Virus record (IMG/VR): IMGVR_UViG_3300036944_001031
Location: 1-37,505 of that record
Strand: one strand, 5' to 3'
Length of the DNA stretch: 37,505 nt
Source: a virus
In this document: positions 27,514 through 35,956 of the stretch, in pieces
Layout: every line of letters starts with the position of its first letter
Numbering within the stretch: position 1 is the stretch's first letter
Notes under the pieces: model-generated
Told to the model about the DNA's origin: nothing
The model's input: only the letters and a program-made list of their open reading frames with translations
Database searches by the model: none
Translations under genes and position numbers: made by a program

Positions 27514-28019
27514 TCGCCTCTCCTTATATTATTCTGATAGACACAAAAGCATTCTTTACAATATGTATTGTGCTTATCTGGGCTGCTTCTGTTTTTTGAA
27601 AAACATATTAATTTTTTTAGTGTTTTACAGCGTGGGCAAGTTTTGCTTTTCCTAGTTAAGGGATTGCCATATTTTTTATGCCGGTATTTTTTAGAGTAAT
27701 GCCTTAGGTTCTTAATGTGTTCTATCATTCCATCAGTAAGTCGTCTATTGTTTTGCTGTTCTTTTCTAGTTGCCCATCTACAATTTTCTTTTGAATAATT
27801 TCCATCATTGTCAATGCGGTCTATAGAATGATATTTACTAGGTCTTGGGCCCATGTCTTTATAAAAGTTCAAAAAAGACTTGATCCAAGAAGCACTAACT
27901 TTAATTCCTCGAGCACCATAATCTTTGAATGCTTCATTGTCTCTGTTGTAACACCTGCTTTTCATGTGCATATAAGCTACATACTCAACAGATCTAGATA
28001 GACCATGATAGCTCCTCAT
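27501..28019 (-). CDS. HNH endonuclease with C-terminal zinc ribbon
   Basis: A 172-residue protein. I chose ATG 28019, whose ATGA overlaps the bet stop and which has CGGAG 8 bases upstream; the frame also opens at TTG 28043 but only within bet. N-terminal: YMHMKSRCYN, FKDYGARGIKV then DRIDNDGNYSKENCRWA and TRKEQQNN, typical of phage HNH proteins. C-terminal: CPRC(...)CFS and YCKECF, a CxxC/CxxC ribbon. Known family: free-standing homing or accessory nucleases. It separates bet from Gp157-like genes and may be inserted, but the 4-base ATGA overlap shows tight integration. Confidence 0.75.
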   Translation of the reverse strand: MRSYHGLSRSVEYVAYMHMKSRCYNRDNEAFKDYGARGIKVSASWIKSFLNFYKDMGPRPSKYHSIDRIDNDGNYSKENCRWATRKEQQNNRRLTDGMIEHIKNLRHYSKKYRHKKYGNPLTRKSKTCPRCKTLKKLICFSKNRSSPDKHNTYCKECFCVYQNNIRRGECRL

Positions 28020-28975
28020 TTCTTTACTCCGAACAGGGCCCAAGTGTCAGAATATTGCTCTTGATTCATCTCGGACCATTTTAAAATATTATATTTTTTA
28101 TAAAGATGGTGGCTCATTTCTTCTAATGTCCACCCGTTTCGATCGCCTACTTTAAAGAGCTGGTGCGACTGGTCTTTTGAGATTTTAACGTTGTTCGCAG
28201 CGTTTCCGATACGAGATCCAGCATTGTCGCTAGACTGTTTCCCATCGTTAACAGGGTCAGCTTTTCCATCTGAACTGTTCCCATAATTGGCTCCGTTACC
28301 GTTTTCTTTCTCGCTAACTTTTTGGTCGTCTTTCTTTTCATTTTCTTTCTCCTTTTTCGGCTCTATTTTATAGGCCGTTGTTGTTTGTTTTGGCGTTACG
28401 TCTTTTAAATCTTCGGCCTGCTCCATTTCTTCTTGCCCGTAAACCCCACTTAGGTCCTGCGGAAAGGCTTTTCTTAATGCTAGGCACTCGGCAACTTTAG
28501 CGATCATTAGGTCTGGCATTTTTAACCAGAATGGGGTCAAAGATCCGTCTTTCTTTTTAGCTGCATAACTCGAGAATTTAGCAACTGCCCACAGGGGTTC
28601 CTTAAAATCCTCTTTTAAAACTCCCACCTTCGCGGCTACGGGGGGTTTATCAGAAAGCCATACGTCCTTCCATTCTCCATTTTCTCCGCACCAGTAAGGC
28701 CCTAGCTGCCCTGAATACTTGCCCGATCTATTAGCAACTATTCGAAAACCATCGACCCCGGTCTGAAAACTAAAGACTTCCCGTCCTAAACTAGAATCCC
28801 ATCGCTTAACGGCCCAGCATTGCTTCTGCATGGGATCTAATCCGGTCCGATTACAATTAGTCACGAATAGGTCTAATTCCGAATCGGAAGCACCCTTCAT
28901 GATCATATCTTTTACTAACTGGATTCTTTCCTTAGGAATAACTTCGCGTTGAACGTAGGGGGTTATGTTGCTCAT
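28016..28975 (-). CDS. bet: Single-strand annealing recombinase Bet/RecT-like
   Basis: A 319-residue protein starting at ATG with TTGGAG 7 bases upstream. Residues ~20-190 match the Bet family: FVTNCNRTGLDPMQKQCWAV, FQTGVDGFRIVANRSGKYSGQL and VAECLALRKAFPQDLSGVYG. Residues ~195-270 are a low-complexity Lys/Glu/Asn/Ser linker, then a helical end (QLFKVGDRNGWTLEEM). Known: anneals complementary single strands, usually with a partner exonuclease that is not seen in the window. First gene of the minus operon, preceded by a structured leader. Confidence 0.85.
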   Translation of the reverse strand: MSNITPYVQREVIPKERIQLVKDMIMKGASDSELDLFVTNCNRTGLDPMQKQCWAVKRWDSSLGREVFSFQTGVDGFRIVANRSGKYSGQLGPYWCGENGEWKDVWLSDKPPVAAKVGVLKEDFKEPLWAVAKFSSYAAKKKDGSLTPFWLKMPDLMIAKVAECLALRKAFPQDLSGVYGQEEMEQAEDLKDVTPKQTTTAYKIEPKKEKENEKKDDQKVSEKENGNGANYGNSSDGKADPVNDGKQSSDNAGSRIGNAANNVKISKDQSHQLFKVGDRNGWTLEEMSHHLYKKYNILKWSEMNQEQYSDTWALFGVKK

Positions 28976-28978
28976 ATA

Positions 28979-29079
28979 GCTCCAAAAAAGGAGCCCGACT
29001 TGTCCTAGTTGATATTGGCATAAGAATCTAGAACAAGCCGGGCGTGATTTATTGAAAATATTTTTTGTTTGCCAATATC
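28979..29079 (-). promoter_or_regulatory. Structured leader of bet: possible pseudoknot plus SD hairpin
   Basis: In the minus-strand RNA, 29028-29043 and 28993-29008 pair over 16 positions, with two G-U pairs in RNA and no mismatch, around a 19-base loop. In that loop, 29011-29020 (GATATTGGCA on plus) is perfectly complementary to 29070-29079 (10 pairs), which could form a pseudoknot. A third hairpin GCTCC/GGAGC (28979-28983/28990-28994) covers the bet ribosome site and overlaps the first stem by 2 bases. This may switch bet translation. Folding is predicted by eye only. Confidence 0.55.
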
Positions 29080-29128
29080 TAGAATGGGTCTATTTTACTT
29101 TTTTAAAAAAATAAATAGAAAAAACAAA

Positions 29129-29134
29129 ATTATA
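29129..29134 (-). promoter_or_regulatory. Candidate -10 box for the bet operon
   Basis: TATAAT in the minus strand (29134 to 29129), a full -10 consensus, would start transcription near 29122, giving a leader of about 150 bases that contains the whole structured region. I see no matching -35 box at 17-18 bases, so an activator or a phage sigma factor may be needed, or this is chance. GACCCATT-like repeats flank it (29083, 29136, 29168). Confidence 0.35.
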
Positions 29135-29185
29135 CAATGGGTCAAACTTTCCTATTTACTGCTTAAAAATGGGGCAAAAAAGGAA

Positions 29186-29216: not shown

Positions 29217-29299
29217 TAATTGATTCTGCAAAAAACACAATTGGTTCAAAGGTACAAAAAAGTCCCATTAAAATCAATTGTTATTTTTACATCAAACAA

Positions 29300-29575
29300 C
29301 GAGAACGGTGAGGGGTTGACTCATATCCCATCATTGCGGCTAAACCGTTCATGCCTCAATGACCAAAGAGTCGGGTTCTGCATTTGTTCCGATGGGAATG
29401 AAACACAGGAGTTGCCTTAACTAATAAGGATACCAAGTAGGCAAATAGCTGTAATTGGTAGAGACTAGTGACGATAAAGCGATTCGTTGAAATTAAACGA
29501 TAGGCCACAATAGAAGTGGTTCATTACGTGGGAAGATCAGGTAAAGAAACAATGTTTCAACCACTGACCTATTAC
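29300..29575 (+). ncRNA. Candidate structured noncoding RNA
   Basis: A gene-free stretch rich in nested helices: GAACGGT 29303-29309 with 29344-29350; TCATTG-GGC 29331-29340 with GCC-CAATGA 29353-29362, whose loop holds the first helix's partner (pseudoknot); GACTC 29318-29322 with 29368-29372; TTCTG plus TTTGTTCC (29376-29390) with GGAATGAA and CAGGA (29395-29410), loop GATG; TTGCCT 29412-29417 with 29439-29444; TCGTT 29484-29488 with 29496-29500; ATAGG 29500-29504 with 29568-29572 enclosing GTGGTT/AACCAC and GAAAC/GTTTC. Strand is assumed plus because the next genes are plus. It matches no class I know; large phage RNAs such as GOLLD or ROOL are candidates. The surrounding 29.0-29.6 kb contains no convincing protein. 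Confidence 0.5.
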
Positions 29576-29619
29576 GGGATGCTTTGTCCTCAAGGAATAA
29601 AACTTAAAGAAAGGATGTT

Positions 29620-29817
29620 ATGGAAGTTGGAAAAACAGGGCTTATTCGAAGGTATAGCGAAGAACAATGGATTGCGGAATGTAAAAGAAGACGACTTAAG
29701 AACGAATTAAAAGAAATTAAACAACAAACGGTCAGTGTTAAAAAAACGATCTTGAGAAAAAATAATAAACAAGATTTAATCCATACACATGAAACAAGAC
29801 AAAACGATAAATATTAA
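29620..29817 (+). CDS. Small basic protein, uncertain
   Basis: A 65-residue ORF with AAAGGATGTT upstream of ATG. Highly basic (RRYSEEQWIAECKRRRLKNELKEIKQQ). It overlaps the ParB-like gene by 29 bases, and a promoter for that gene lies inside it. It could be a DNA-binding accessory protein or a chance ORF at the end of the RNA region. No family. Confidence 0.35.
   Translation: MEVGKTGLIRRYSEEQWIAECKRRRLKNELKEIKQQTVSVKKTILRKNNKQDLIHTHETRQNDKY
29752..29780 (+). promoter_or_regulatory. Sigma70-type promoter, leaderless, for the ParB-glycosyltransferase operon
   Basis: TTGAGA (29752-29757, 5 of 6) and TTTAAT (29775-29780, 5 of 6), exactly 17 bases apart. The expected start, ~29787, lies at the ATG at 29789, which has no ribosome site (CATACAC before it). 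This is the second promoter of this layout in the window. Confidence 0.65.
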
Positions 29818-30607
29818 ATGTGAAGCAAAGAGTTACTTTCAATTAGAAGAGTTAATCCCTTTTCAGGGTAAGTTAAAATCCATAGATAAGAAACACTTTA
29901 AGGATTTAAAAGATAGTTTAATTAAAGACGGCTTGCCCCTAGGGTTTCATGTTTGGAAAGATTCCAAAGACAAAGTATTTATTATAGATGGGCACCACAG
30001 GCAGTTAGCTTTGAAAGCATTGCAAGACGAAGGCTATCACATACCTGCTTTGCCTTGCACTGTAGTCTTTGCGAAGAATAAAAAAGAAGCAGCCAAAGCG
30101 GTTTTAATTTCTAATTCAAAGTATGCGAATATTAGTCCGGAAAGCCTTTCTGATTTCATGATAGATTTTGAATTAGGTTTAGATGATTTACAATTCTTAG
30201 ATATCACCGGTTTAGACATGGATGACTTTGCTAAAGATGCCGGTAAAGAAGGAAAAGACGAAGAGAATTTTTATACTGATAATATTAAGGCTCCTATTTA
30301 TACACCAAAAGGAGAAAAGCCAAAGATTACAGAGCTTTTTGATTTAACTAAAACCAATATTCTTTTAGAGAAAATAAATCAAAGTGAGCTGCCTAAAAAA
30401 GAAAAAGAGTTCTTAAGTTATGCAGCTCAGAGGCATATTGTTTTTAATTATAAAAGTATTGCTGAGTTTTATTGTCATGCTAGCAAAGAGGCACAGGATT
30501 TAATGGAAGATTCTGCTTTAGTTATTATAGATTTTAACAAAGCTGTAGAAAATGGATTTGTTAAATTAACTCAGGATTTAGCTGAAGCGTGTGAAGATGA
30601 AGAATAA
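29789..30607 (+). CDS. ParB-like N-terminal nuclease-domain protein
   Basis: A 272-residue protein. Residues ~15-110 match the ParB/sulfiredoxin fold: ELIPFQGKLKSIDKKHFKDLKDSL, a GFHVWKDSKDKVFIIDGHHRQLALKAL element (DGHHR is the classic box II) and LPCTVVFAKNKKEAAKAVLISNS. The C-terminal half is helical and acidic with no HTH pattern I can see. Known phage relatives lie next to DNA-modification genes, including TET-associated glycosyltransferases. The stop overlaps the next start region by 11 bases. The mRNA probably starts at or near the ATG. Confidence 0.75.
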   Translation: MKQDKTINIKCEAKSYFQLEELIPFQGKLKSIDKKHFKDLKDSLIKDGLPLGFHVWKDSKDKVFIIDGHHRQLALKALQDEGYHIPALPCTVVFAKNKKEAAKAVLISNSKYANISPESLSDFMIDFELGLDDLQFLDITGLDMDDFAKDAGKEGKDEENFYTDNIKAPIYTPKGEKPKITELFDLTKTNILLEKINQSELPKKEKEFLSYAAQRHIVFNYKSIAEFYCHASKEAQDLMEDSALVIIDFNKAVENGFVKLTQDLAEACEDEE

Positions 30608-31463
30608 CCTAGACGATTTTGCAGTATTTATTTTAACTAACGGTCGCCCTGATAATGTTATTACCTATAAAACCCTACAAAATAGTGGTTATACAGGCAG
30701 GGTTTATTTAGTCGTAGATGATTTAGATAAAACTAAAGATAAGTATTTAGAAAAGTATGGTGATCAAGTTATTATCTTTGATAAAAAAGCTATAGCAGCG
30801 ACCTTTGACGAAGGTGATAATTTTAATGATATGCGAGCTATTATCTACGCCCGTAACGCTTGTTTTAAAATAGCAGAAGATTTAGGAATCACTTATTTTA
30901 TTCAATTAGATGACGACTACACTTCATTCAACTTTAGATTTAACAAAGACTTAAAGTATTCATATTCCTCGATTACCAATTTAGATTTAATATTTCACCA
31001 CCTTTTAGATTTTTATATAAATACAAATGTAGATTCTATAGCTATGGCCCAGGGCGGAGACTTTATAGGCGGGGTTGATGGAACTAATGCCTCTGTAAAA
31101 AGTGTTTTAGTATTACGAAAGTGCATGAATAGCTTTTTATGCTCTACAAAAAGACCTTTTAAGTTCGTAGGAAGAGTAAACGAGGACGTGAACACTTACA
31201 CACGGTTAGCTAGCACAGGGCTTTTATTATTTACTATAAATCAAATATCACTTCAGCAGAAACAGACGCAAACTAATCAGGGTGGAATGACCGAAATGTA
31301 TTTAGATTCGGGAACCTATGTAAAAAGTTTCTACACTGTAATGTACCACCCATCTTCCGTTAAAATAAAGATGATGCAGTCTAAGTTTAAAAGGCTGCAT
31401 CACTCTGTCAGGTGGGACCATACCGTTCCTTTGATTCTGGACGAATCCTTTAAGAAGAAATAG
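30597..31463 (+). CDS. Glycosyltransferase resembling TET-associated DNA glycosyltransferase (TAGT)
   Basis: A 288-residue protein (ATG 30597; a GTG at 30591 is an alternative). It begins FAVFILTNGRPDNVITYKTL, then VYLVVDDLDKTKDKYLEKYG and YARNACFKIAEDLGITYFIQLDDDYTSF, with the DDD metal motif (~100), and MAQGGDFIGG. This arrangement is what I recall for the TAGT family, GT-A enzymes that add sugar to 5-hydroxymethylcytosine in phage DNA. It overlaps the ParB-like gene, a pairing known from such operons. No TET/JBP hydroxylase, hydroxymethylase or thymidylate synthase is seen in the window. Family call fairly likely; substrate unknown. Confidence 0.7.
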   Translation: MKNNLDDFAVFILTNGRPDNVITYKTLQNSGYTGRVYLVVDDLDKTKDKYLEKYGDQVIIFDKKAIAATFDEGDNFNDMRAIIYARNACFKIAEDLGITYFIQLDDDYTSFNFRFNKDLKYSYSSITNLDLIFHHLLDFYINTNVDSIAMAQGGDFIGGVDGTNASVKSVLVLRKCMNSFLCSTKRPFKFVGRVNEDVNTYTRLASTGLLLFTINQISLQQKQTQTNQGGMTEMYLDSGTYVKSFYTVMYHPSSVKIKMMQSKFKRLHHSVRWDHTVPLILDESFKKK

Positions 31464-35879: not shown

Positions 35880-35956
35880 GATTGTGTAGCTCAGCTGCGT
35901 AGAGCGTCGGATTGCAAACCCGAAGGTCCCAGGTTGAATTCCTGGCACAATCTCCA
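35880..35956 (+). tRNA. tRNA-Cys (anticodon GCA)
   Basis: Perfect 7-bp acceptor GATTGTG/CACAATC, D-stem GCTC/GAGC, anticodon loop TTGCAAA (GCA at 35914-35916), variable loop AGGTC, T-stem CCAGG/CCTGG, U73 and encoded CCA (35954-35956). U73 with GCA fits Cys identity. Odd points: the D-loop reads AGCTGCGTA, so position 19 is C, and the T-loop reads TTGAATT, so position 56 is G, an apparent swap of the usual G19-C56 pair. The last anticodon-stem pair is A-C. Confidence 0.9.

Follow-up and report, generated by a model that had tools for sequence, protein, structure and literature searches.

A conserved structured RNA with a 5' pseudoknot in a metagenomic phage genome and two Bdellovibrio phages

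Described phage RNAs and the present locus

Phage-encoded RNAs of a complexity similar to that of the element reported here are few, and the function of most of them is unknown. Many GOLLD RNAs are longer than 800 nt, and GOLLD and ROOL are often found near tRNA islands (PMC12286853). In phage T4 a pseudoknot leader 5' of gene 32 exerts autogenous translational control (PMC535899), and the putRNA of phage HK022 is a cis-acting antiterminator RNA of early phage operons (PMC9378689). The window studied here is one complete IMG/VR virus record (37,505 bases). It is the genome of a tailed phage, and its capsid protein (PHROG 1005) bears no more than a distant likeness to the capsids of cultured phages. 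A sequence-only reading of this genome had proposed that positions 29300-29575 hold a new structured RNA or one distantly related to GOLLD or ROOL. The true bounds of the element are 29303-29586 on the plus strand, as delimited by covariance models from which the window had been excluded and by the last invariant block, GGGATGCTTTG, which ends at 29586.

The element is like GOLLD and ROOL in being a phage-encoded structured RNA with an elaborate fold and of unknown function (PMC12286853). It differs from both in being far shorter, at 284 nt, and in the outcome of covariance-model searches, in which neither model gave a match at E up to 10, so the proposed kinship was not borne out. The tRNA-island feature is also absent here, as a single tRNA-Cys (GCA; 35880-35956) lies 6 kb away in the window and there is none in phi1402 or MAC3UK, the two Bdellovibrio phages that carry homologues. 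None of the 4,227 families of Rfam 15, GOLLD and ROOL included, matched the window at the gathering cut-off; with the limit relaxed to E 10 for the region and to E 5 for the loci of the relatives, there was still no match. Resemblances to group I introns and tRNA-like structures, seen by eye, were dropped, as no model supported them. No mention of this intergenic region of phi1402 or MAC3UK was found in the open-access papers searched, and an earlier remark elsewhere, as in the phi1402 genome paper, is possible. The element appears to be an RNA family not described before; its mechanism may prove to be a known one.

Like the new RNA, HK022 putRNA is a phage RNA close to the start of a transcription unit, and it is a possible functional analogue with neither a sequence nor a structure match. 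Long-range antitermination of the putRNA kind is unlikely, since only ~600 bp of the leftward unit lie downstream in phi1402. The T4 gene 32 leader likewise places a 5' pseudoknot ahead of a phage gene, but the new element has several domains over 284 nt and no evident tie to a nucleic-acid-binding protein.

The RNA lies within ~640 bases that hold no credible gene and separate two diverging blocks. The leftward block begins with recT (28016-28975, minus strand), and the rightward block comprises a small basic ORF of 65 aa (29620-29817), a ParB-like protein gene (29789-30607) and a TET-associated glycosyltransferase gene (30591-31463), all on the plus strand. The 65-aa ORF starts 33 nt past the RNA, has an SD-like GAAAGGA, scores 0.144 per codon against a gene mean of 0.21 and returned no database relatives. 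A promoter-like match (TTCAAA-18-TAAAAT; 29245-29274, plus strand) is found ~28 nt 5' of the RNA and agrees at 9/12 positions, which is chance level. The ParB-like and glycosyltransferase genes (29789-31463) recur as a two-gene cassette in 31 viral loci, in phages that are otherwise different, which suggests a DNA-modification module. Near the GC-skew switch, AATGGG(T/G)C is present in three same-orientation copies within 90 bp (29083, 29136 and 29168), with one further copy genome-wide, and is a possible operator or iteron.

Homologues in Bdellovibrio phages

At the default cut-off, blastn returned nothing in phages or plasmids. When the region alone was searched at E up to 10, weak matches were obtained to MAC3UK (E 0.002, query 239-309) and phi1402 (E 0.03, query 93-170). 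These involved different parts of the query and stood out because both phages are Bdellovibrio phages and both matches lie at the same genome end. A three-way alignment of the window, phi1402 and MAC3UK spans the element end to end, with ~65-76% identity in the aligned blocks and a variable arm between P8 and P9. The homologous RNAs are intergenic and unannotated as RNA, at 23.09-23.37 kb in phi1402 and 22.98-23.26 kb in MAC3UK, and share with the window the nine helices of the consensus, the pseudoknot and the invariant blocks.

As a guard against circularity, covariance models were built from phi1402 and MAC3UK only, with the window left out. The 5'-domain model (R2) matched window positions 29303-29416 on the plus strand with 64.7 bits and an E-value of 1.9e-15, with no other match in the window, and the 3'-domain model (R3) matched 29413-29596 on the same strand with 85.4 bits and E 8e-23, the next-best match having E 0.32; these E-values are rough, as the calibration was short. 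The two matches lie next to each other on the same strand and in the right order, with one significant place each. Judged by these bit scores, the homology of the window RNA with those of phi1402 and MAC3UK is beyond reasonable doubt, in a comparison of three sequences of which the latter two are related.

The proteins of the window gave no match to phi1402, MAC3UK or phi1422 (tblastn, E 1e-3). The neighbouring genes are also different: here they are the divergent recT, the 65-aa ORF and the ParB-like and glycosyltransferase genes, and in the Bdellovibrio phages gp41/gp42-type and other small ORFs. As the window has no detectable protein in common with phi1402 or MAC3UK, the RNA probably persists or moves on its own.

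A search for further carriers applied the 5' model to the full length of 65 records, among which the window, phi1402 and MAC3UK were the only convincing positives. No other phage record in INPHARED matched by blastn, Bdellovibrio phage phi1422 gave no match to the RNA, and the RNA was not found in plasmids. The ParB-like, 65-aa ORF, Gam-like and RusA proteins, used as routes to homologous loci, returned no relatives; RecT led to a Chloroflexi locus and two viral ones that all lack the RNA, which was also absent from the 31 loci of the glycosyltransferase/ParB cassette. The contigs of capsid-sister phages (79-80%) end short of the RNA region. Two sets of candidates were rejected: 46 matches in viral contigs to an exact 15-mer of the P3 loop, whose flank identity of 24% is chance level, and one match of the 5' model among 301 Chloroflexota genomes (E 4.7e-4), which aligned 58 nt to 115 positions, had no 3' domain and was judged to be chance.

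Covariation and consensus structure

The stretch 29303-29586 is almost certainly a genuine conserved structured RNA. Its consensus has nine helices, including the 5' pseudoknot, and a small tenth (P4) that is counted only in the 5'-domain alignment. Across the 53 consensus pairs, 93.6% of cells hold standard pairs, and 19 pairs show two-sided changes compared to 7.1 in shuffles, a number reached by 0/500. A slid control, in which the partner strand was moved by 1-3 columns, gave at most 5 two-sided pairs and 47% paired. The 5' domain alone has 10 two-sided pairs against 4.1 in shuffles, and RNAalifold, left to its own choice of structure, found 22 pairs with two-sided changes. G-U occurs in 25 paired cells, where the opposite strand would have A-C mismatches, so the plus strand is the functional RNA strand. 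The proposal of a new RNA has thus held, with homologues carrying compensatory changes in two Bdellovibrio phages and no Rfam match. The same reading had named a lack of compensatory changes and conservation only as a coding frame as signs against an RNA; both were looked for, and neither was seen.

The 5' domain consists of P1-P5 and, as with all helices below, is read on the plus strand. P1 joins 29303-29309 (GAACGGT) to the P3 loop at 29344-29350 (ACCGTTC), with 7/7 pairs at the same place in all three phages; it is near-invariant, with one two-sided change (G-C to U-G), and its support from covariation is slight. Covariation is clearest in P3, P2, P7 and P9. The P3 hairpin (29331-29362) is formed by 29331-29336/29357-29362 and 29338-29340/29353-29355, with two-sided changes in 7/10 pairs (UCAUUG/CAAUGA, CCGGG/CCCGG and CCGCAAG/CUUGCGG in the three phages). 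Its stem is free to vary, and its loop, AAACCGTT, is fixed and paired to the fixed 5' end, which is the arrangement of an H-type pseudoknot; this had been proposed from the window and is retained in all three phages. P2 (29316-29322/29368-29374) has 7, 9 and 9 bp, with two-sided changes in 4/7 pairs (UUGACUC/GAGUCGG, UUGUUAGUA/UACUAACGG and UUGUUAUCU/AGAUAACGG). P5 (29376-29380/29406-29410) is paired in the three phages without a two-sided change and holds the invariant TTCTGCATTTG, while its cap, P4 (29387-29390/29395-29398), has one two-sided change.

The 3' domain comprises P6-P10 and ends in the invariant GGGAUGCUUUG. It opens with the P6 hairpin (29415-29418/29426-29429; CCUU/AAGG, CCCG/CGGG and GCC/GGC) and continues with P7 (29431-29436/29455-29460; UACCAA/UUGGUA, UAGGCA/UGUCUA and CACGCA/UGUGUG), in which 4/6 pairs show two-sided changes and the loop contains the invariant GCAAATAGC. 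P8 (29466-29471/29521-29526) is 6/6 paired in the three phages, with two two-sided changes. The P9 hairpin is formed by 29504-29508 and 29516-29520 (GCCAC/GUGGU, GCCCA/UGGGU and GCCUG/CAGGU). P10 (29537-29540/29564-29567; UCAG/CUGA, UUAGC/GCUGA and UCAGU/ACUGA) is the weakest helix, its changes being one-sided only. The 3' block TATTACGGGATGCTTTG (29570-29586) is unpaired in the consensus, and within it ACGGGATGCTTTG is invariant in all three phages. The blocks invariant throughout are ACGGTGAGGGGTTG, AAACCGTT, CGGGTTCTGCATTTG, GCAAATAGC, CTGACCT and ACGGGATGCTTTG, and those that are unpaired suggest tertiary contacts or the binding of a partner.

The original proposal had rested on helix density. 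All of its helices are present, but their density is weak evidence: 29300-29575 holds 7 perfect Watson-Crick helices of at least 6 bp against 4.0 expected from shuffles (P 0.11) and 4 of at least 7 bp against 1.0 (P 0.02), and the same counts are reached by 30% (6-bp helices) and 8% (7-bp) of other 276-nt segments of the genome. The folding z of the region is -1.6 to -2.5 on the plus strand and -2.1 to -2.7 on the minus strand, and its best tile ranks 17 of 500 genome tiles in stability relative to shuffles. The single-sequence values of the three phages are unremarkable (-1.6 in the window, -0.5 and -0.2 in the others), so that helix counts and folding z were rejected as proof of an RNA, the relatives' scores being lower still in magnitude. 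This shows that single-sequence folding z-scores miss RNAs of this kind. Three of the seven perfect helices are conserved, 29303-09/29344-50 (P1), 29331-36/29357-62 (P3) and 29431-36/29455-60 (P7). Outside the consensus are 29326-32/29391-97, 29412-17/29439-44, 29486-92/29555-61 and 29515-21/29559-65, two of which overlap and are mutually exclusive. What had been read as a long nested arm at 29500-29572 is made up of portions of P8, P9 and P10, and six conserved helices (P2, P5, P6, P8, P9 and P10) had been overlooked or seen in part.

Possible roles and other folds

We favour a compact, stand-alone structured RNA of ~284 nt that would act in trans, a statement to which, taken whole and with the trans action included, we give about an even chance, ahead of a cis-acting leader. 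A promoter immediately 5' of the RNA would drive its transcription in infected cells, and the RNA would act in trans on a host component, namely RNA polymerase, the ribosome or an RNA-processing enzyme. Such action on the host would explain why the RNA is kept by phages without common proteins despite their differing neighbour genes, and its retention suggests a job aimed at the host. As the RNA is common to the window phage and otherwise unrelated Bdellovibrio phages, a Bdellovibrio-like host is likely for the former. A broader reading, which we hold somewhat more tentatively, is that the RNA belongs to a novel class of phage RNAs that stand alone and are swapped among unrelated phages of predatory bacteria; folded into a pseudoknotted particle, it would reprogramme the RNA polymerase, the ribosome or the RNA processing of Bdellovibrio-like hosts during infection. 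Unlike a metagenomic contig alone, the cultured carriers phi1402 and MAC3UK, which grow on Bdellovibrio bacteriovorus, make the transcript, its structure and its effect on infection directly testable.

The principal alternative, which is plausible and in our view less probable than trans action, is a large cis-acting element in the 5' UTR (an antiterminator, a riboswitch or an autogenous leader with a bound protein) that would control the small basic ORF together with the operon behind it. Beyond the conserved 3' end, all three phages have an SD and a start codon, the latter 20, 21 and 33 nt past the RNA, a spacing compatible with a cis leader also, and no intrinsic terminator was found directly after the RNA. 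The downstream ORFs of phi1402 and MAC3UK begin and end alike (V/MKN... KPxGVxGxIPKV) and differ inside by 46 codons in frame, and that of the window is likewise small and basic and weakly similar to MAC3UK_0043 (P 0.027). The T4 gene 32 leader offers a precedent for autogenous control by a pseudoknot (PMC535899). However, these ORFs are unequal in length (28, 74 and 65 aa), with no significant homology to that of the window, and in phi1402 most of the ORF is gone but the RNA is intact. The genes further on also differ (ParB-like and glycosyltransferase compared to unrelated ORFs), and no helix that would sequester the SD as an alternative is conserved.

A catalytic RNA (self-cleaving or self-splicing), or its remnant, would be compatible with the size, the pseudoknot and the invariant unpaired blocks of the element, but is improbable, as no Rfam ribozyme or intron family matches and there is no adjoining interrupted gene. 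Still less probable is a role as DNA, for instance as an origin or a cruciform operator; a sign change of the GC skew near 29 kb and direct repeats at 29080-29180 would suit it, yet conservation of the G-U pairs is confined to one strand and the pseudoknot is meaningful only as RNA.

A protein gene is very improbable. One frame in each of phi1402, MAC3UK and the window yields a peptide with GFCIC, and the GFCIC-frame peptides match by blastp at E ~3e-4; GFCIC is a side effect of the invariance of CGGGTTCTGCATTTG. The MAC3UK sequence is frameshifted inside the ORF, starts and stops are unconserved with stops falling mid-element, and sequence conservation extends far beyond them. The coding score is 0.002 per codon for the ORF at 29220-29420 and -0.13 for that at 29356-29508 (minus strand) compared to 0.21 for genes, and the wobble positions are invariant while the stems covary. 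The hypothetical proteins annotated over the RNA, phi1402 gp40 (JF344709, 23212-23382) and MAC3UK_0044 (OR167113, 23154-23258), were very probably miscalled on structured RNA, and annotated ORFs such as these can be disguised RNA genes. Helices arisen by chance, in non-coding DNA or in a decayed gene, would be consistent with the density and z-scores alone but are refuted, to near certainty, by the leave-one-out matches and the compensatory changes.

Other folds were noted in these genomes. Relative to shuffles, the most stable of the 500 genome tiles is 28951-29100 on the minus strand, in the recT leader, where 28993-29043 forms an uninterrupted stem (z -6.3) that is the strongest fold of the window and is perfect only as minus-strand RNA, owing to G-U pairs. 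Next comes a small hairpin, GCUCC-U6-GGAGC, in which the recT Shine-Dalgarno is paired, and the fold may be an attenuator, an RNase III site or a translation control. A very long near-perfect hairpin (z -6.1) of unrelated sequence lies 5' of another recT in a Chloroflexi MAG contig (L045:1018-1110), so hairpins in recT leaders may recur.

In phi1402 at ~22.6-23.0 kb (L094:940-1310) and in MAC3UK (L095:1062-1432), a second stretch is 85% identical and is unannotated in phi1402; it has no match in the window. With a very stable consensus fold (-105 kcal/mol) and 7 compensatory pairs, from two sequences only, it may be another structured RNA.
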